NCBI GenBank assembly: GCA_022425195.1
Contig: JAKMFX010000042.1
Location: forward strand, 1-58,715
Direction of reading: 5' to 3'
Length of the DNA: 58,715 bases
From: Flavobacteriales bacterium
GTDB taxonomy: Bacteria > Bacteroidota > Bacteroidia > Flavobacteriales > UBA7430
A program made the position numbers and the translations under genes. Shown here in pieces: positions 36,123 through 55,293 of this stretch; position 1 is the first letter of the stretch; each line of letters begins with the position of its first letter. The notes beneath the pieces were generated by a model, which ran no database searches, was not told where the DNA came from, and was given only the letters and a program-made list of their open reading frames with translations.

Positions 36123-37640
36123 CTAACCCACCAGTACATTACCGTTCATTTCTTTAGGAATATCGATACCCATCATTTTCAATATGCTCGGAGCTACATC
36201 AGCTAGTTTACCGTTTTTAATGTCAGAATAGCCAGAATTCAATAAGAAACAAGGAACTGGATTTGTGGTATGTGCCGTATTTGGAGTGCCATCATCGTTA
36301 ATCATATAGTCCGCATTACCATGATCGGCAATGATCAGGAATGTATAATCTTGTTTTAACCCCGCTTCTACGACTTGTTTTGCACATTGGTCCACAGTCT
36401 CAAGCGCCTCTACCACTGCATCGTAAACTCCTGTATGGCCCACCATGTCTGGATTGGCGAAATTCAAACAAATGAAGTCTACAGGAGCATCCTCCATTTC
36501 AGAAACAATCGCATTTGTGATTTCTTGAGCACTCATTGAGGGTTGTAAATCGTAAGTAGCCACCTTCGGTGAAGGAATCATGATTCTTTTCTCTCCCTCA
36601 AAACTTTGTTCACGCCCACCAGAAAAGAAGAAAGATACATGTGGATATTTTTCTGTTTCAGCAATTCTAATCTGAGTTTTACCATGGGCAGATAATACCT
36701 CACCTAAGGTATTCTGAAGATTGTCTTTGTGAAATAAAACAGACACATTTTTGTAGGATTCGTCATACATAGTCATGGTCACGTAGTTCAAATCAAGCTT
36801 AGCCATATGGTATTCTGGAAAATCTTCTTGAGTAAGTACTCTACTGATTTCTCTACAGCGATCTGTTCGGAAGTTAAAACATATGACCAAATCACCTTCT
36901 TCAATTTTTGCTTTGGCAGTTCCATTAGCGTCCACCTTAACAATCGGTTTTACAAACTCATCGGTAACACCCGAATCATAAGAAGCTTGAATAGAATTGA
37001 CTAGGTCTTTACTTTTTTCACCTTCAGCGTGAACCAACAAATCATAAGCCAGCTTAACACGTTCCCAGCGGGTATCTCTATCCATGGCGTAGTAACGACC
37101 AATTACACTGACAAGTTCTGCAGATAAATTCGAAAGCTTAGACTCTAAAGTCTGTATAAAACCCTTACCACTTTTAGGATCCGTATCTCTACCATCGGTA
37201 AAGGCATGCACAAATACATCACTCAAACCAGCGGTATCCGCCAATTCACACAAATGATGTAAATGGGTCTCATGGGCATGAATACCTCCATCTGAGACCA
37301 AACCCATGAAATGAACGGATTTATTATTGTCTTTTGCATAAGCAAAAGCTTCATTCAATGTCTTGTTGTCCTTAAAGGTGTCATTTTTAACAGCATGATT
37401 GATTTTCACCAAATCTTGATAAACAACTCTTCCGGCACCTATATTAAGATGACCAACTTCAGAATTTCCCATTTGACCCGCAGGAAGCCCTACCTGTTCT
37501 CCATCAGTAAGTAATTCCGCATTTGGGTAATTTTTGTAGAGTGAATCTACAAAAGAAGTATCCGCATTTTGCATGGCATTAGATTTAGAATCATTTCCAT
37601 GACCCCAACCGTCAAGAATTAATAAAGCTACTTTTTTCAT
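36123..37640 (-). CDS. gpmI: 2,3-bisphosphoglycerate-independent phosphoglycerate mutase
   Basis: A protein of 505 residues of the alkaline phosphatase superfamily. The N-terminal metal motif LLILDGWGHG is intact (D10), the catalytic serine is S60 in GQMGNSEVGHLN, and the C-terminal metal-binding segment includes ADHGNADYMI and HTTNPVP. It interconverts 3- and 2-phosphoglycerate in glycolysis with Mn2+. It is a single gene, divergent from the FtsB/DivIC-like gene; the 189-base gap holds a -7 box for the latter. Confidence 0.97.
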   Translation of the reverse strand: MKKVALLILDGWGHGNDSKSNAMQNADTSFVDSLYKNYPNAELLTDGEQVGLPAGQMGNSEVGHLNIGAGRVVYQDLVKINHAVKNDTFKDNKTLNEAFAYAKDNNKSVHFMGLVSDGGIHAHETHLHHLCELADTAGLSDVFVHAFTDGRDTDPKSGKGFIQTLESKLSNLSAELVSVIGRYYAMDRDTRWERVKLAYDLLVHAEGEKSKDLVNSIQASYDSGVTDEFVKPIVKVDANGTAKAKIEEGDLVICFNFRTDRCREISRVLTQEDFPEYHMAKLDLNYVTMTMYDESYKNVSVLFHKDNLQNTLGEVLSAHGKTQIRIAETEKYPHVSFFFSGGREQSFEGEKRIMIPSPKVATYDLQPSMSAQEITNAIVSEMEDAPVDFICLNFANPDMVGHTGVYDAVVEALETVDQCAKQVVEAGLKQDYTFLIIADHGNADYMINDDGTPNTAHTTNPVPCFLLNSGYSDIKNGKLADVAPSILKMMGIDIPKEMNGNVLVG

Positions 37641-37795
37641 CCGTTAAAATTTGTGGCAATTTAGCTTTTACTTTTGATAGTACATAGCTTTTTAAGGCTT
37701 GCATAATGCATCTACCACAAAAAAACTAAAGACTCTAGTGACCATTGTATTCATGACATTAACATGTAATTAGTGAATATAGACGCTTTAAATTG

Positions 37796-37803
37796 TATAT
37801 TTG
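37796..37803 (+). promoter_or_regulatory. Bacteroidota -7 box for the FtsB/DivIC-like gene and mutAB
   Basis: TATATTTG, an exact consensus match ending 26 bases before the ATG at 37830. It also supports 37830 rather than the TTG at 37815 as the start, since the transcript would begin near 37810. Confidence 0.6.
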
Positions 37804-37829
37804 AATAGATTCACTTGCATCGAAACATC

Positions 37830-38132
37830 ATGTCAAATCACACATTTATTTTAAAACAACACTTCAAGAAACTTAGAAATCCTTTTGTCATTACCGGGTT
37901 ATTTTTTGGCTTGTGGATGCTTTTTTTTGACACCAATTCCTATGTCAACCAAAGTCAGTTATCAAAGACGATAGACCAACTGGAAAAAGACCGTCAACAT
38001 TACAAGGAAGAAATTAAAAAAGATTCTATTGCGCTTGATGAGTTATCCAATTCTAAAGGCTTGGAGAAATTTGCAAGAGAAAAATACCACATGAAGAAAG
38101 AAAATGAAGAAATCTTCCTCATTGTTGAATGA
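37830..38132 (+). CDS. Septum formation initiator (FtsB/DivIC family)
   Basis: A protein of 100 residues with one TM helix (about 19-35) followed by a coiled coil (about 45-75) and the family segment SKGLEKFAREKYHMKKENEEIFLI. FtsB/DivIC proteins join FtsL and FtsQ in the divisome. The ATG at 37830 is chosen because the -7 box at 37796-37803 lies just upstream. It is followed after 10 bases by mutA, a gene order I know from other Bacteroidota. Confidence 0.93.
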   Translation: MSNHTFILKQHFKKLRNPFVITGLFFGLWMLFFDTNSYVNQSQLSKTIDQLEKDRQHYKEEIKKDSIALDELSNSKGLEKFAREKYHMKKENEEIFLIVE

Positions 38133-38142
38133 TTCTTGAATT

Positions 38143-39513
38143 ATGAAAAAGTTATTTGAAGAGTTCAATCCTAAAACACTAAAAGACTGGAATGATAGAG
38201 TCATTGCAGACCTTAAAGGAGCGTCTTTCGAATCACTTATTTGGAATCAATCAGAAAACATAAAAATTGCGCCCATTTACCATCGTGAATCTAATCCCGA
38301 CAAAGAGCGTGGGCTGATCTTTGAACATTCTGATTGGGAAATAGAACAAACACTAAATACGCCAAACAATAAAAAAGTACTGGCCTGTTTAAATTCTGGC
38401 GCCACTGCTCTACTTCTTAAAAACATTTCTTCAGAACATTTAGATACTGTCCTTGAAAATGTATGGTTTCAGCACATACAAACTTCCTTTATTACGGATT
38501 CACCAAACCGTCTTTTAAGTAACTTTATATCACTGATAAAAAAAAGGGATCTTGACGTCAAATCCATTCAAGGGAGTCTGCATTATGACCCTCTTATGAA
38601 AGGCCTAAAAAATGGCGCATTTGAAAACAAACTATGGGAGAAATTTGAATCCATTCAGGAAAAAATAGATTCCCTTACCAGCTACAAGAGTCTAACCATT
38701 CAAGCTCATGAATACTCTGATGCTGGGGCTAGTATCACGCAAGAGTTGGCCTTTACTTCTGCTCAACTGAGTGAGTATTTAGCCAAATCACCCAAACTCA
38801 ATCCTCAAAATATTCAAATCAGTATGGGGGTTTCTACCCATTACTTTTTTGAAATCGCAAAATACAGAGCTTTAAGAATTTTATGGGCTCAACTTCTGAA
38901 AGCCTACAACAAAGAATACGTCACCTTATCTGTTAGAGCACAAAGCAGCTTGAGAACCACTACCCTATACGACCCACATACCAATATGCTGAGGAACACC
39001 AGCCAATGTATGTCGGCAGCTATAGGGGGAGCAAACACCATTAACATCAATAGTTTTAATGCACTTCATGCAAAAGAGGATGACTTTGGACAGCGAATGT
39101 CAAGAAATATTTCGCTTATATTAAAAGAAGAAGCTCATGTCAACAAGGTGAGTGACCCTTCGGCAGGCTCCTATTATATTGAACACCTTACCCATAAACT
39201 GAGTGAAAATGCTTGGAAACTGTTTCAGGAAATAGAAGCAAAAGGCGGCTGGTTGGAAAATGTAAAGACGAATGTCATACAAAAGATGATTCAAGACAAT
39301 GCAGAGCAACAAGAAAAAGATCTTCATTCTGGAGCTAAGGTGCTCTTAGGCACAAATCTTTACACTAACGATGAAGAAAAATGGGATACAAAAAGTGTAA
39401 GTACACCATCAAAAAACCGAAAAACAGAAAAAGACTTTAAGCCATTAAACACCTATCGGCTATCGGAGCAAATGGAACTTCAAAGACAATCAAAAGAAGA
39501 AAACCATGTCTAG
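38143..39513 (+). CDS. mutA: Methylmalonyl-CoA mutase small (beta) subunit
   Basis: A protein of 456 residues matching the non-catalytic subunit of methylmalonyl-CoA mutase: [22 protein letters not shown] at the start, a TIM-barrel-like middle with [17 protein letters not shown], and [17 protein letters not shown]. It lacks the C-terminal cobalamin-binding domain and is shorter than many orthologues of about 600 residues, as is usual for Bacteroidota. It stabilises the large subunit. Its 3' end overlaps the mutB start by eight bases, implying coupled translation. Confidence 0.93.
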
Positions 39514-41635
39514 ACCGGATTTTTCAACTCTTAATCTCGATATAAGAAGTGTGAAAACTTCTGAGGCCCAGCCTGTTTGGATGAGTCCTGAACACATACA
39601 AATCAAAAGCCATTACGAAGCACATGACATAAAAGATACAGAGCACATCGATTTTGTATCCGGAATAGCGCCCAACCTCAGAGGGCCTTATACAACGATG
39701 TATGTGAAACGACCATGGACGATACGACAATATGCAGGCTTTTCTACAGCTGAAGCTTCTAATGCCTTTTACCGAAAGAATCTTGCGGCGGGTCAAAAGG
39801 GTCTTTCTGTAGCCTTTGACTTGGCAACACATCGCGGATACGACTCCGATCATGAGCGCGTGATTGGAGATGTAGGTAAGGCAGGAGTTGCCATAGATAG
39901 TGTTGAAGATATGAAGACGCTATTTGATCGTATTCCTCTCGATGAAATGTCGGTATCCATGACCATGAACGGAGCCGTTCTCCCAATCATGGCTTTCTAC
40001 ATTGTTGCTGCAGAAGAACAAGGCATTGAGACAAAGCAACTCAGTGGGACCATACAAAACGATATCTTGAAAGAGTTTATGGTTCGAAACACCTATATCT
40101 ATCCTCCAGAACAGTCCATGAAGATTATTGCTGATATTTTTGAATACACGGCTCTTCACATGCCAAAATTCAATTCCATAAGCATTTCAGGATATCACAT
40201 GCAAGAAGCAGGTGCCACTGCAGATATAGAATTGGCTTATACTTTGGCCGACGGATTGGAATACCTTCGAAAAGGGATAGAAGCAGGAATGGATATAGAT
40301 GCTTTTGCTCCACGATTGTCCTTCTTTTGGGGGATAGGTATGAATCACTTTATGGAAATGGCTAAAATGCGTGCTGCTCGAATGATTTGGGCAAAGCTTG
40401 TCAAATCGTTCCATCCCAAAAATCCCAAATCATTAAGCTTAAGAACACATTGTCAAACATCCGGATGGAGCTTAACCGAACAAGACCCATTCAACAATGT
40501 AACCCGAACCTGCATAGAAGGAATGGCAGCTGTATTTGGTGGTACACAATCCCTTCACACCAATGCATTAGATGAAGCCATTGCCTTGCCTACAGAGTTC
40601 TCAGCTCGGATTGCCCGAAATACACAAATATATCTTCAAAAAGAAACAGAGATAACAAGAGTTGTAGACCCCTGGGGAGGCGCTTACTATGTTGAAAAGC
40701 TCACTGAAGAAATCACCCAGAAAGCTTGGAAACGAATCGAAGAAATTGAGGCCTTGGGCGGGATGGCTAAAGCCATAGAAACCGGAATTCCAAAGATGCG
40801 TATCGAAGAAGCTGCCGCCAGAAAACAAGCACGCATCGACTCTGGTACGGATAAAATAATTGGAGTCAATGCATATCGATTGAAGAAAGAAGAACCTATA
40901 GAAACACGAGAAATTGACAACACTCAGGTACTAGAGTCACAAATAAAACGTTTAAATAAAGCACGAAATTCAAGAGATGAAGCAGCCGTTCAAAAAGCAT
41001 TAGACAAGCTCAGTGAAGCCTGTCGAAACCAAAATGAAAATTTATTAGCTTTGGCTATTGTTGCTGCAAGGAATAGGGCTACACTCGGAGAGATATCGAG
41101 TGCATGCGAAAAAGTATTTGGAAGATATCAAGCGAAAATTCGCTCAATAGGTGGCGTATACTCTAAGGAGATGACAGACAATAAAGCGTTTATAAAAGCA
41201 CGAAAATTAGCCGACAAATTTGCTGAGATGGAAGGGCGAAGACCAAGAATTATGATTGCTAAAATGGGGCAAGACGGTCATGACAGAGGGGCAAAAGTCG
41301 TGGCTACGTCTTTCGCTGACTTGGGGTTTGACGTAGATATTGGTCCCTTATTTCAAAGCCCCAAAGAAGCCGCCAAGCAAGCTGTAGAAAACGATGTTCA
41401 TATATTGGGGATTTCTTCCTTAGCGGCAGGTCATAAAACCCTTATTCCGAAAGTTATTGAAGAACTGAAAGCCATGGGGAGAGAAGACATCTTCATTGTA
41501 GCTGGAGGGGTGATTCCATCGAGAGACTATGAGCAATTGTTTGATATGGGTGTCTCTGGAATCTTCGGACCGGGAACAGTAATTGCTGATGCGGCTTCAG
41601 AAATACTAAATGTAATGATGAAGGAGTGTCCATGA
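39506..41635 (+). CDS. mutB: Methylmalonyl-CoA mutase large (alpha) subunit
   Basis: A protein of 709 residues with the substrate-binding TIM barrel (about 50-550, with [21 protein letters not shown]) and a C-terminal cobalamin-binding domain (about 575-705) carrying the base-off DxHxxG motif in [14 protein letters not shown]. It interconverts methylmalonyl-CoA and succinyl-CoA using adenosylcobalamin, in propionate breakdown or odd-chain and branched-chain degradation. It works with MutA. The last codons contain a good Shine-Dalgarno for the next gene. Confidence 0.97.
41621..41626 (+). promoter_or_regulatory. Shine-Dalgarno AAGGAG within the mutB 3' end
   Basis: AAGGAG lies five bases before the ATG at 41632, the ideal spacing. 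Such sequences are rare in this window, where most starts lack one. It decides the start of the next gene against the GTG at 41626, which would overlap the ribosome-binding site. Confidence 0.6.
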
Positions 41636-50543: not shown

Positions 50544-51824
50544 CTATGTACCAGGATTACCCACTACGATTTCGCAAAGATCATCTTCCTTTAGGTATTG
50601 ATGGGTCAAAGCTCTCAAATTTTCAGCATCCAAATGATCAAGGAAGTTTTGATAATCGTCATAAAACGCATAGTCCATACCCTGAATATGCATATTTTTC
50701 AATAAGCTTACTTGAGCAAAGGGACCATCTGCTGACTTCAAAATCTGGCCCATAATGTAATTTTTCACCAGGCTAAGTTCTTCTTCGGGAATCAATTCTT
50801 CTCTAAGCCGCTTGAGTTCTTTGTATATTTCTTGCAATGCCAAAGCCGTTGACTCTCCTTTCACTTCTGTAGAAATACTGAAATAACCACTCTCCTCTTG
50901 CTGAACACACATCGCACCTATCCCATAGGTTAAACCTTTATCTTCACGAATATTGCTCATCAAACGAGAACCAAAATATCCCCCCAAGACCACAGACAAA
51001 AACTTTAAGGGCTGGTAATCTTGATGATGACTTGTAAAACAAACTCTTCCAATACGAATGGCGGATTGCATAGCCCCCTCTCTCGAAAGATGTATTTTTT
51101 CCTTTTTAATGGGTGCCGAGAAGGTCTCAACAACTTTTGGCTTTCTCAATTCCCACGCGCCCAAACATTCTTCTAACATCGCTATTACACCAGTAGGCAT
51201 GGTTCCCGCAATATATATTTTGAGAACAGCATTTTTATAATTCGCAGTGTGAAAATCTATAAGGTCTTGCCTAGAAATCGACTCAAAATCTTCAAGTGAT
51301 ACAGAAACTCCATAGGGATGAGATTCGAACAAGCAGTTGAAAAAAGTATTTCTCGCAATGAACTCAACCTTCTCAGAATTAATCCTAAAACTCTGTTTTT
51401 TTTGGGCGAGAGCAACCTGAAATTCATCTTCTGGGAAGATGGGATTTTTAATCGCATCAACGAAAATGGGAAGTACTTCATCAAAGTATTTATTGAGGGT
51501 AAACAGCGAAACAACTGCACGGTCAGCATTGACATCTAGCTGCGTATAAGCACCATAAAAATCTAAGCTTTCGTGAATCTCTTCTCCTTTTTTATGAGCT
51601 GTACCCTCAAGAAGTAATGCGTTGCATAAACTGGCCTGTAAGACTTTATTTTGAGCTTTACTCCCGGCCTCAAACACCAGGTCTAAGCGACACAAATCTT
51701 GATCACCTCCTTCTACAGTAAATCCCTGCAAGCCGTTTGACAATTGAAAAGTCTTAGGGGTAATGAAATCAGGCATATTGATTTCCTGAAAATGCATTTC
51801 TTTTTTTCGATCTAACATCTTCAT
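50544..51824 (-). CDS. M16 peptidase-like protein lacking the zinc motif (partner subunit)
   Basis: A protein of 426 residues of the M16 (pitrilysin) fold. Where the HxxEH motif should be, it reads LCNALLLEGT, so it cannot bind catalytic zinc in the usual way. It keeps the Arg/Tyr-type segment REDKGLTYGIG (about 295-305) that binds substrate in inactive partner subunits. The start codon is directly adjacent to the stop of the active M16 gene, so the two are translated together and likely form a heterodimer, as in mitochondrial processing peptidase. Confidence 0.9.
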   Translation of the reverse strand: MKMLDRKKEMHFQEINMPDFITPKTFQLSNGLQGFTVEGGDQDLCRLDLVFEAGSKAQNKVLQASLCNALLLEGTAHKKGEEIHESLDFYGAYTQLDVNADRAVVSLFTLNKYFDEVLPIFVDAIKNPIFPEDEFQVALAQKKQSFRINSEKVEFIARNTFFNCLFESHPYGVSVSLEDFESISRQDLIDFHTANYKNAVLKIYIAGTMPTGVIAMLEECLGAWELRKPKVVETFSAPIKKEKIHLSREGAMQSAIRIGRVCFTSHHQDYQPLKFLSVVLGGYFGSRLMSNIREDKGLTYGIGAMCVQQEESGYFSISTEVKGESTALALQEIYKELKRLREELIPEEELSLVKNYIMGQILKSADGPFAQVSLLKNMHIQGMDYAFYDDYQNFLDHLDAENLRALTHQYLKEDDLCEIVVGNPGT

Positions 51825-53060
51825 CTATTTGGCATGATAATACAAAGTATTGGAATTCGCTTTTCTAAAAACAGACTGAGCCACTGCTTTAATCTTATCT
51901 GAGGTGACTTCTTCATAGCGTTCGATCTGTTGATTCACCAACTCTGCATCCCCCATCAATTCTGAGGTAGCTAGATTAATGGCCTTATTCAATACATTTA
52001 ACTCTGAAAACTTGTGTGCTGAGATGGCTTTATTTTTCACTTTTCGGAGTTCTTTTTCACCAACCAGAACAGAACTTAACTTTTCTATTTCGGCATCAAT
52101 ACCTGCTTCTGCATCTTTCATAGACACGCCAGGAGTAAGCTTACCGGCAAAATAAAATAAGCCTTCATCCAATTCACCTCCAATAAATGCGTCAACATCA
52201 CTAAAAAGTTTGTGTTCTTTCACCAAACTATTGTACAATCGTGAGGAGTTTCCTCTCGACAAAATATCAGAAATTAAATCCGTGGCATAAAAATCTGGAT
52301 GGGTTCGGGCACACATGTGAAAAGCCTTGTATATCACATCAACAGGCACTTCTCTTTCTACCTTGAGTGTACGTGCCTTTTCTTGACGTGGCTCTTTAGG
52401 AAGACTTCTTTTTGGGGTATCTCTTGAAGATATGGGACCAAACCACTTTTGTGAAAGTGCTTTGACTTGATTGAGCGCTACATCTCCAGCAACAACTAAT
52501 ATGGCATTATTAGGCGCGTAATGTGTGTAAAAAAAGTCTTTTACCTCCTCCATAGTGGCCTCTTCTATATGCGAAACTTCTTTACCAATGGTAGGCCATT
52601 GGTAAGGGTGTTTTTGGTAAGCAAGTGGCCTTAGCAGTAGGTGAATGTCACCATAAGGCTGATTTAAATAATTCTGCTTAAACTCTTCTATCACCACTTG
52701 TCTTTGTACTTCCAGACTTTTTGGAGTAAAAGCCAAACTCAGCATTCGATCGGACTCTAAGCGAAAAGCGTGTTCTAAATTTTCTTTAGGTAACGTTATG
52801 TAGTAATTGGTAATATCATTGGAGGTAAAAGCATTGTTCTGCCCACCTGCTTTCTCTACAACTTCATCATAATCAGAGATGTTTACAGAGCCCCCAAACA
52901 TTAAATGTTCAAAGAGATGCGCAAAACCGGTACGAAGAGGATTTTCATCACGGGCACCTACATCATACAATAAGTTGAAGGCAACAATGGGGGTGCTTTT
53001 ATCTTGATGGACAATGACTTTCAAGCCATTTTCCAATTCAAACTTTTCAAAATTTATCAT
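51825..53060 (-). CDS. M16 zinc metallopeptidase (active subunit)
   Basis: A protein of 411 residues of M16B type. The zinc motif is H48-x2-E51-H52 (in FAHLFEHLMF), with the downstream acidic ligand near 125-126 in VVIEEF. It cleaves peptides or short proteins inside a clam-shell formed with a partner. No signal peptide is seen, so it is probably cytoplasmic. It sits one base after the NRAMP-like transporter stop and just before the inactive M16 gene. Confidence 0.95.
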   Translation of the reverse strand: MINFEKFELENGLKVIVHQDKSTPIVAFNLLYDVGARDENPLRTGFAHLFEHLMFGGSVNISDYDEVVEKAGGQNNAFTSNDITNYYITLPKENLEHAFRLESDRMLSLAFTPKSLEVQRQVVIEEFKQNYLNQPYGDIHLLLRPLAYQKHPYQWPTIGKEVSHIEEATMEEVKDFFYTHYAPNNAILVVAGDVALNQVKALSQKWFGPISSRDTPKRSLPKEPRQEKARTLKVEREVPVDVIYKAFHMCARTHPDFYATDLISDILSRGNSSRLYNSLVKEHKLFSDVDAFIGGELDEGLFYFAGKLTPGVSMKDAEAGIDAEIEKLSSVLVGEKELRKVKNKAISAHKFSELNVLNKAINLATSELMGDAELVNQQIERYEEVTSDKIKAVAQSVFRKANSNTLYYHAK

Positions 53061-53061
53061 C

Positions 53062-54315
53062 CTACAAATGTATCCATTCTAATTTTAGCGCCACAAATAA
53101 CAAGCTAAAACTCAACAAATAAATAATTCCCAAAACCGATAAAATGCGCATGATTAAATTCGGTTTTTCTTGTTTGGTTAAATCATCTGAAAGCACCAAT
53201 TTGAAATTGACAATGGCAATCAAGGGGGCGATGACAAAAGATATGATCGTCGCTAAATCTACCAAGGCTTTAAAATTCCCCAAAAAATTATTGATGACAA
53301 TAAAAGCACCCACCAAGACGATGGTTAGCCACAACTTGTAGGTTTTAATTTCTTTACGACTCGCATCCAAGAGTAATGCCGTCGTTTCAGACATGGCTCT
53401 AGAATAACCATCAAAAACAGTAATACAGGTACTAAACATGACGGAAAATGAAGAGATGGCTATAAAATAATAAGCACCCTCCCCCATTGTCCGCGTAAAC
53501 ATTCCCACTACTTGATTGGCAAAGACAGCTGAACTGTTAGAGAGCTCTGTCTCGGTTCCGTAAATTAAAAAGGCACCCAACGTAATGAAACAAATGGACA
53601 AACCCGCAGTGATCCAATAACCGATGTTGAACTCTTTTAGGGTTTCCTTCAAAGTGGGCAAATAATCCGTTTGCTTAATCCGTTCCAGCGTCCAAATGGA
53701 ATTCCAAGTTGAGAGATCTACTGCTGTCGGCATCCAACCCATTAAGGCAATCACAAAAAACACATTTTCCTTGTCCAATTCAAGAGGTAAAACCAATTGA
53801 TCCCATGTGGCTACTGGTCCATGCCAGAGCGTCATTAGGAAAGCAATGAGCGTAGATATTAACAAGACCGAACCAATCAATTTAATCAAACCGTCCAATA
53901 GACTGAACTTGCCACTTAGAAGGACGGCCATACATACCGCCATTAGTAAAATAGAAGCCTCTGATGGGTCTAATGGCAATTGGAAAAGATTAATCATTAA
54001 ACCTACACATACATAGGTAACCGCCGCTGCTACGGTAAACATAGAAATTAAAGTAATGGCTAAGTATAAAATGAGCATGCCTCTGCCCAACTTATGATAC
54101 CCATAAATTAAACTTTTCCCCGTGGCGTTGGCATAACGAGATCCAAACTCAAAAAAAGGATACTTTAAAACATTGGCCATCAAAGCAAATCCTATCAAAG
54201 CAAAACCGTATTCTGCTCCCGCTCTGGTCGATTGAACAAGGTGGGATACCCCTATGGCTGTGGTAGCGAATAAAATTCCGGGGCCCAGTGTTTTTAAAAA
54301 TCTCTTGGTAAACAT
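53062..54315 (-). CDS. NRAMP-related transporter with altered metal-binding motifs
   Basis: A membrane protein of 417 residues with about 11 TM helices (LeuT fold). The frame GPGILFATTAIGVSHLVQST (11-30) aligns with NRAMP TM1, but the metal motif DPGN is replaced (G22-V23-S24-H25). In TM6 the usual MPH is MPT (195-197). NRAMP proteins import Mn2+/Fe2+ with protons; with these changes, substrate choice is uncertain and could be Mg2+ or a non-metal. It is co-directional with the nitronate monooxygenase and M16 genes, 12 and one base from them. Confidence 0.85.
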   Translation of the reverse strand: MFTKRFLKTLGPGILFATTAIGVSHLVQSTRAGAEYGFALIGFALMANVLKYPFFEFGSRYANATGKSLIYGYHKLGRGMLILYLAITLISMFTVAAAVTYVCVGLMINLFQLPLDPSEASILLMAVCMAVLLSGKFSLLDGLIKLIGSVLLISTLIAFLMTLWHGPVATWDQLVLPLELDKENVFFVIALMGWMPTAVDLSTWNSIWTLERIKQTDYLPTLKETLKEFNIGYWITAGLSICFITLGAFLIYGTETELSNSSAVFANQVVGMFTRTMGEGAYYFIAISSFSVMFSTCITVFDGYSRAMSETTALLLDASRKEIKTYKLWLTIVLVGAFIVINNFLGNFKALVDLATIISFVIAPLIAIVNFKLVLSDDLTKQEKPNLIMRILSVLGIIYLLSFSLLFVALKLEWIHL

Positions 54316-54327
54316 GTAGATAAGTCT

Positions 54328-55293
54328 TTACTGATCGTAGTTGTGATGTAATTTGGATAAGGTTTTGTAGAAATCTTCCATGATTTCCATGACAATCTCT
54401 TGGGCAGGCTTAATCTCTTGTATGGAAGAAGAAACTTGTCCAATTTCAAGCTCGCCCTCATTCATATCTCCTTCAAACATTCCTTTTTTTGCTCGACCTT
54501 TGCCCAAAAGTGCTTTCAATTCCTCATTAGAAGCCTGATTTACATAGGCCTTTTGAATGTCATTGTAAAACTTATTTTTCAACAAGCGAACAGGAGTAAG
54601 TTCTTTTAGGGTCAACCTTGTCGAATCCTCTTTCGCATTGACAATGGCATTCTTAAAATCGATATGTGCAGAGGATTCTGGAGTGGCAACAAATCGAGAA
54701 CCAATTTGAACGCCTTCTGCCCCTAGAGCAAATGCTGCAGCCATACTTTTCCCAGAACCTATACCACCTGCAGCAATCACAGGAATATTGACCGCTTCTG
54801 CAATCAAAGGCACCAAACACAGCGTTGTGGTCTCCTCCCTACCGTTATGCCCACCCGCTTCGAAGCCTTCGGCAACAACAGCATCTACACCAGCCGCCTC
54901 AGATTTTTGAGCGAAAATGACATTGGAAACGACATGAGCCACCTTAACGCCGTGCTTTTTAAACAGAGGTGTCCATTTTTTTGGACTGCCAGCAGAAGTA
55001 AACACAATGGGGACTTTTTCATCCAAAATCGTCTGAACATGCGCTTCTATACTGGGGTATAATAGGGGTAGGTTTACAGCAAAAGGTCGGTGGGTGGCCT
55101 TTTTACATTTTTGAATATGCTGCTTTAAAACCTCAGGGTACATAGAACCCGCACCAATGATACCCAGTCCTCCAGATTCACTAACTGCCGATGCCAACTC
55201 CCAGCCACTGCACCAAACCATACCCGCTTGAATAAGGGGGTATTTTATTCCAAACAAATCCGTTAACCTGTTATTAAATTTATGGGTTTTCAA
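54328..55293 (-). CDS. Nitronate monooxygenase-family flavoprotein
   Basis: A protein of 321 residues with a FMN-binding TIM barrel: QAGMVWCSGWELASAVSESG near the start, the catalytic-type His in EAGGHNG, and the phosphate-binding AAGGIGSGKSMAAAFALGA and GSRF segments. The family oxidises nitronates or reduces enones; some members are enoyl-ACP reductase-like, so the substrate is unsure. The start is TTG at 55293; no earlier ATG fits, and an AGAGG Shine-Dalgarno-like stretch lies about nine bases upstream. It leads the four-gene run to the M16 pair. Confidence 0.88.
   Translation of the reverse strand: MKTHKFNNRLTDLFGIKYPLIQAGMVWCSGWELASAVSESGGLGIIGAGSMYPEVLKQHIQKCKKATHRPFAVNLPLLYPSIEAHVQTILDEKVPIVFTSAGSPKKWTPLFKKHGVKVAHVVSNVIFAQKSEAAGVDAVVAEGFEAGGHNGREETTTLCLVPLIAEAVNIPVIAAGGIGSGKSMAAAFALGAEGVQIGSRFVATPESSAHIDFKNAIVNAKEDSTRLTLKELTPVRLLKNKFYNDIQKAYVNQASNEELKALLGKGRAKKGMFEGDMNEGELEIGQVSSSIQEIKPAQEIVMEIMEDFYKTLSKLHHNYDQ

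Follow-up and report, generated by a model that had tools for sequence, protein, structure and literature searches.

The locus studied here raises the question of what an Nramp-type carrier transports once the residues by which such carriers bind metal have been replaced. It lies in a window of 58,715 nucleotides, by which we mean the whole stretch of DNA that was analysed. In databases, proteins of this clade go by the name "Nramp family divalent metal transporter", yet all the residues known to bind metal in Nramps are replaced in them. The preliminary description of the locus, made from the sequence, had proposed an NRAMP-fold protein with lost metal motifs, a loss or switch of substrate, and a role shared with three adjacent genes. 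The fold and the lost motifs are borne out, the gene order points away from a shared role, and import of a divalent metal without proton coupling has slightly less than an even chance of being the function.

Fold and transport site

A single 417-aa open reading frame occupies the whole of 53062–54315 on the minus strand (54315..53062; Table 1). Its product passes NCBIfam NF037982 at 51.9 bits (cut-off 50) and has no match above threshold to the Pfam Nramp family (PF01566); its 53 aligned relatives all match NF037982, and 39 of them match Pfam Nramp (E up to 0.01). Sequence searches of the PDB, also with the 53-sequence profile, reached none of the solved NRAMP chains (E up to 1), whereas the GPGT group, another Nramp-related type from the same phylum, reaches EleNRMT by sequence at 1e-55. 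The subfamily is thus unusually diverged, and the alignment of the window protein therefore rests on profile comparison and structure. By profile, the subfamily matches the GPGT/GTGS Nramp-related groups at 99.3% (E 1.1e-20). The AlphaFold2 (AF2) model, built on the alignment of the 53 relatives, has a pLDDT of 89.7 and a pTM of 0.88, and its best Foldseek matches in the PDB are DraNramp (TM-score 0.77–0.78, E 1.5e-10) and EleNRMT (TM-score 0.76), with the amino-acid carriers ApcT (0.69) and SLC7A10 (0.70) also among the fold matches. The LeuT fold of the model is of the NRAMP variant, as had been proposed, and the protein combines NRAMP homology and fold with the lack of the canonical motifs. 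We regard it as nearly certain that the protein belongs to the Nramp-related (SLC11 outgroup) assemblage as a LeuT-fold carrier, and that its clade is a separate one recognisable by GxSH in TM1 and GWMP(T/A/S)...(D/E) in TM6.

Table 1. Features of the carrier gene and its neighbours, in window coordinates
Feature	Position	Strand	Basis and remarks
Nramp-related carrier, GxSH/GWMP subfamily (P0001, 417 aa)	53062..54315	-	ORF, NF037982, AF2 model, PDB fold match
TM1 G22-V23-S24-H25 codons, replacing canonical DPGN	54241..54252	-	Profile alignment, conservation in 53 relatives
TM6 G193-W194-M195-P196-T197-A198-V199-D200 codons, rebuilt TM6 half of site	53716..53739	-	Conservation, ungapped anchors
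FabK-like FMN enoyl-ACP reductase	54328..55293	-	PF03060, TIGR03151, PDB 4iql; 12 bp upstream of NRAMP gene
M16 peptidase M16a with HLFEH	51825..53060	-	PF00675/PF05193; 1 bp downstream of NRAMP gene
M16-like partner M16b without HxxEH	50544..51824	-	PF05193/PF00675; 0 bp downstream of M16a

TM1 of the window protein reads GPGILFATTAIGVSHLVQSTRAGA. In the profile-profile alignment G22-V23-S24-H25 falls on D-P-G-N, the replacement already noted in the preliminary description, and DPGN occurs nowhere else in the protein. G22, S24 and H25 are invariant in the 53 relatives and in three proteobacterial members (Photobacterium, Pseudoalteromonas, Neisseria), while V23 is kept in 52 relatives. The canonical DxxN pair is thereby changed at both ends, Asp to Gly and Asn to His. 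Glycine at the Asp position is common to every other Nramp-related group compared (GPGT, GAGD, GSGE, GPGS, GTGS); Ser-His in TM1 is peculiar to the GxSH subfamily among them.

The TM6 half of the site has been rebuilt as well. G193, W194, M195 and P196 are invariant in the 53 relatives, position 197 is Thr, Ala or Ser, 198 is Ala or Pro, 199 is Val, Ile or Leu, and 200 is always Asp or Glu; W194 is invariant in 56 sequences. With G193 on G226 and S206 on S239 as anchors, the segment between them aligns without a gap to canonical Nramps, the GPGT group and EleNRMT alike, giving the equivalences A227 to W194, M230 to T197, P231 to A198, H232 to V199 and N233 to D200. An hhalign alignment to canonical Nramps instead opens a two-residue gap in TM6 by which M-P meets M-P. 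We rejected it for the ungapped alignment because both anchors then agree, because a proline stands exactly at P231 in six of the 53 relatives and in the proteobacterial members, because EleNRMT has the same spacing, and because the first residue of TM6b in the model of this protein (198) is equivalent to that in the model of a canonical Nramp (231). The MPT that the preliminary description had set in place of MPH is accordingly not homologous to it: the visible M-P lies two residues early and the canonical Met corresponds to T197, although the loss of the Met-containing motif itself stands. WxxTAV replaces A/CxxMPH, and even with the gapped alignment the His is gone. None of the four canonical binding positions is thus kept, and the only one on which the protein agrees with EleNRMT is M230, where both have a small residue. 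In canonical Nramps the backbone of A227, here a tryptophan, coordinates the metal. The replacement residues are largely as strictly conserved as the canonical ones.

The pathway for protons is missing too. Neither the window protein nor its 53 relatives have a charged residue in TM3 within the membrane, and the subfamily alignment has no conserved Lys or Arg in TM9, so that the acids in TM3 and the arginines in TM9 that belong to the proton path in clades A and C and in eukaryotes are lacking. TM1 runs unbroken (residues 12–36) in the AF2 model and breaks at the DPGN site in a canonical Nramp modelled as a control, a contrast that is only suggestive because the control has moderate confidence (pLDDT 73.9).

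Distribution and conservation

The subfamily is found in 71 of 392 sampled Bacteroidota genomes (about 18%), and members occur also in Photobacterium, Pseudoalteromonas and Neisseria gonorrhoeae. In a tree with other Nramp types its members group as a single clade (SH-aLRT 99), whose stem, at 4.26 changes per site, is a very long branch of unsure placement. The dN/dS ratios of the two nearest pairs, 0.014 and 0.029, indicate strong purifying selection and rule out a decaying gene or pseudogene; with G22, S24 and H25 invariant, the GVSH pattern reflects neither chance nor decay. Bacteroidota hold, in addition, at least five further Nramp-related groups with the TM1 motifs GPGT, GPGS, GTGS, GAGD and GSGE (loci L025–L029, L211, L212, L030 and L204–L210), several of which share one genome.

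Contigs labelled Nitrosopumilus or Nitrosopumilales in four assemblies (L075, L080, L100, L110) carry the subfamily, and the three of these in the tree form one clade (support 100). In L075, an archaeal-type lysyl-tRNA synthetase and Elp3 are encoded in the flanks, so at least this contig is archaeal, which counters a reading of the archaeal members as mere contamination. Their presence looks like a transfer from Bacteroidota to ammonia-oxidising archaea.

A member of particular interest is a 417-aa gene of N. gonorrhoeae (NZ_CP119140.1; L221:4971-6221), which is 35% identical to the window protein, has VGGSHL and GWMPAPIEIS, and lacks DPGN and MPH. It differs from the window protein in not keeping E56 and W204, in having Glu for Asp200 and in its neighbours, and the searched chromosome has no other PF01566-type gene. 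The replicons NZ_CP119140.1 and NZ_CP119142.1, 2.17 Mb each, are filed as plasmids in PLSDB and are evidently chromosomes. The gonococcal "MntH" WP_003698816.1, also of 417 aa, was presented in the literature as an importer of Mn/Fe with a link to the gonococcal genetic island; 12 SNPs in mntH are associated with the island, and mntH variants mark two sub-populations (PMC10272882). Elsewhere the gonococcal MntH homologue is noted as not tested (PMC9280163). From length and uniqueness we infer that WP_003698816.1 is the protein found here, and the gonococcal "mntH" thus appears to belong to the non-canonical GxSH/GWMP clade. A clade common in marine Bacteroidota would then include a gonococcal gene that is discussed as a Mn/Fe importer from its name.

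Gene order

The carrier gene stands in a run of four genes in a single direction, separated by 12, 1 and 0 bp and followed further down on the same strand by IMPDH and a PpiC-type isomerase. The tightness of this run was correctly described at the outset, and it is fair to speak of an active/inactive peptidase pair, since M16a has HLFEH at residue 48 and the sequence of M16b has no HxxEH. The flavoprotein upstream had been taken for a nitronate monooxygenase-like protein. It also matches the Pfam NMO family (PF03060), but its nearest PDB match is 4iql, an enoyl-ACP reductase II, at 405 bits against 176 bits for a nitronate monooxygenase. FabK-like is the safe name, because its score with the FabK equivalog TIGR03151 (326 bits) is below the cut-off of 453.

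The compact run, and its retention in the window's own family, could suggest a functional module with a shared role, as the preliminary description had supposed. The full FabK-NRAMP-M16a-M16b block is found only in that family (L061–L064, and L065 as far as its contig reaches); it is not unique to this genome, and neither is it a block conserved across Flavobacteriales. In one long-contig MAG (L064; G008:C2, about 37445-39939) the orthologues of the NRAMP and M16a genes have internal stops or frame breaks, perhaps through errors of sequencing and not through decay. The parts of the block also occur separately. M16a-M16b is found without NRAMP in families f7 and f14 and in some f1 genomes, and NRAMP without the M16 pair in f5, f8, f12, f15 and all wider Bacteroidota. 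In L201 (family f7), glycosyltransferase-like genes, MORN, FabK, M16a, M16b, IMPDH and PpiC follow the window order with NRAMP absent, and FabK and M16a overlap directly (L201:3328-6807). Co-occurrence of the four genes across lineages is therefore not found, and only FabK-NRAMP is a recurrent pair.

This adjacency is seen in five Flavobacteriales families (f1, f5, f8, f12, f15), often with gaps of 0–3 bp or an overlap (L213, L214, L215, L202, L203) and partly near MORN and a tRNA-thiouridylase-like gene. In f5, f8, f12 and f15 it is followed by large secreted proteins, one of which, when scanned, has a type IX secretion signal domain. The fold matches include PDB 9a52, an integrative model of the Nramp-related YcsG of B. 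subtilis with FabL, itself an enoyl-ACP reductase; a literature search found no paper for this model. We regard the FabK adjacency and the YcsG-FabL model as a curious coincidence to which no weight can be assigned. Most loci of the subfamily lack FabK, and most have neither FabK nor M16 as a neighbour. Across Bacteroidota there are no constant functional neighbours: Hsp20, haemolysin-III-like, Thr dehydrogenase and other genes, named from sequence starts, vary by lineage. Metal genes are not constant neighbours either, and no pxpABC-type gene was recognised among the recurrent neighbours, as judged from sequence starts and from some that were scanned against family libraries. A promoter scan was uninformative (15 sites against 18.3 expected). 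A shared role for the four genes is thus very improbable, and the genes beside the carrier gene in this genome probably owe their place mostly to inherited gene order; on that account, and not as part of one machine, the carrier gene would probably share a transcript with fabK and the M16 pair.

Candidate substrates and known systems

Because all canonical site residues are replaced, the protein cannot be taken to work by the canonical Mn/Fe mechanism. No particular loss or switch of substrate follows, and the Asp to Gly change is common to all Nramp-related groups compared. The reading that we favour, with slightly less than an even chance of being right, is that the protein would be a proton-independent divalent-metal importer using His25, Thr197 and Asp200. 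A divalent metal (Mn, Fe or similar) would be imported by alternating access without proton coupling; the acidic ligand would have moved from TM1 to TM6b, with Asp200 as the putative metal ligand assisted by His25 of TM1 and by Thr197 at the former Met position. Given a metal substrate, uniport is likelier than H+ symport, since the proton path is lost, by analogy with EleNRMT and BfraNramp. The invariance of H25, the Asp or Glu at 200 in all relatives and the Thr, Ala or Ser at 197 are in keeping with such a site. A ferritin gene lies downstream in three Nitrosopumilus contigs, and larA, of a nickel-enzyme family (nickel racemase type), in the fourth. In the window's own genome we found no canonical Nramp and no ZnuA/MntC-type binding protein, and FeoB_N matches are only weak and on short frames. 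One of 392 genomes has both the clade and a canonical MntH (E at most 1e-100) against 24.5 expected (odds ratio 0.02, p 1e-13), an exclusion that gives weak support, since members of one family do not count as independent genomes and the Pfam score decided what was "canonical". The GPGT-type Nramp-related group often occurs alongside the clade. A search of Rfam with the window and five relatives found no riboswitch or metalloregulated RNA, the sole match being a tRNA.

Against a metal substrate stand the loss of all canonical ligands, the absence of an acid in TM1 or TM3 (the TM3 position being Glu or Asp in many Nramp-related proteins) and the invariant Trp in place of A227, as would fit an aromatic pocket for an organic substrate. 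The main rival is accordingly a carrier of an amino-acid-like or other small organic molecule, in which W194 would line the TM6 break with an aromatic wall, as happens in other APC-superfamily carriers. The fold matches to ApcT and SLC7A10 agree with this, as does PxpT of Corynebacterium glutamicum, an Nramp-related protein 50% identical to YcsG and required for growth on 5-oxoproline (PMC13274462); YcsG itself, however, has been claimed to import Mn, under the name MntG (PMC10448178). Such a pocket would have no need of a conserved His and Asp/Glu pair, catabolic genes are not constant neighbours, and the ferritin and larA genes in archaea also speak against it, so that we consider an organic substrate possible but rather unlikely. 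A carrier of Mg2+ or a hydrated cation like EleNRMT, with the site opened to alkaline-earth ions by loss of the soft Met, is improbable. It would account for the Thr, Ala or Ser at the M230 position, which is Ala or Thr in NRMTs (PMC8806188), and the M230A/S/T variants of DraNramp allow growth on Mg2+ (PMC13060092). The NRMT signature, on the other hand, has a TM1 Asp and a Thr at A227 where the window protein has Gly and Trp, no M-box riboswitch lies near the gene, whereas some NRMTs have a Mg2+ riboswitch, and a Mg2+ role would be redundant, because the genome has MgtE and two ZIP genes.

Taken as a whole, the explanation that joins an Nramp-related clade, metal import and inherited gene order falls just short of an even chance. 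A broader proposal, which we hold to be doubtful, is that of a class of proton-independent carriers with a metal site rebuilt on a TM1 His and a TM6b acid and with TM1 unbroken, spread among Bacteroidota, Proteobacteria (pathogenic Neisseria among them) and ammonia-oxidising archaea; the gonococcal "MntH" would then be no MntH-type H+/Mn2+ symporter. A transport result would tell whether the NRAMP fold binds metal without DPGN and MPH or became a carrier of organic solutes, and it would correct the annotation in hundreds of genomes.

Nramp-related proteins lacking DPGN and MPH are a known class, since they have been described as a group, mostly uncharacterised (Ray 2026, PMC12873925; see also Shin 2014, PMC4072509, and Cellier 2022, PMC9606685, for the SLC11 outgroup). 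Like these, the window protein has the NRAMP fold and PF01566-type homology and is without DPGN, MPH and the proton pathway; unlike them, its clade has a long stem, the GxSH/GWMP signature and no match to a solved chain. The GxSH/GWMP site is undescribed in the text of the literature consulted, and the clade may equal one of the "G-motif" groups, named but uncharacterised, that are published only as figure logos. EleNRMT, a Mg2+/Mn2+ uniporter (PDB 7QIA; PMC8806188), resembles the window protein in fold, in the small residue at M230 and in having no proton pathway. Its site is DxxG-TxxA with a TM3 Glu, and that of the window protein is GxxH-WxxT without one, which agrees with the NRMT signature (TM1 DxxG, TM6 TxxA/T) at the last position only and lacks the TM3 glutamate near the site throughout the subfamily. 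Both EleNRMT and clade B Nramp are proton-independent and, apart from the TM3 Glu, are without the TM3/TM9 proton-path charges (PMC8806188, PMC12873925). The clade B Nramp of B. fragilis (PDB 10KY/10LE) comes from the same phylum and likewise lacks most proton-pathway residues, but keeps DPGN, MPH and the TM3 Glu, none of which the window protein has. A precedent for Mn2+ in the outgroup exists in the A. capsulatum protein (PMC4072509). MntG/YcsG and PxpT, whose genes adjoin pxpABC, are likewise Nramp-related and poorly understood, and with Mn2+ and 5-oxoproline they provide a precedent for both metal and organic substrates.
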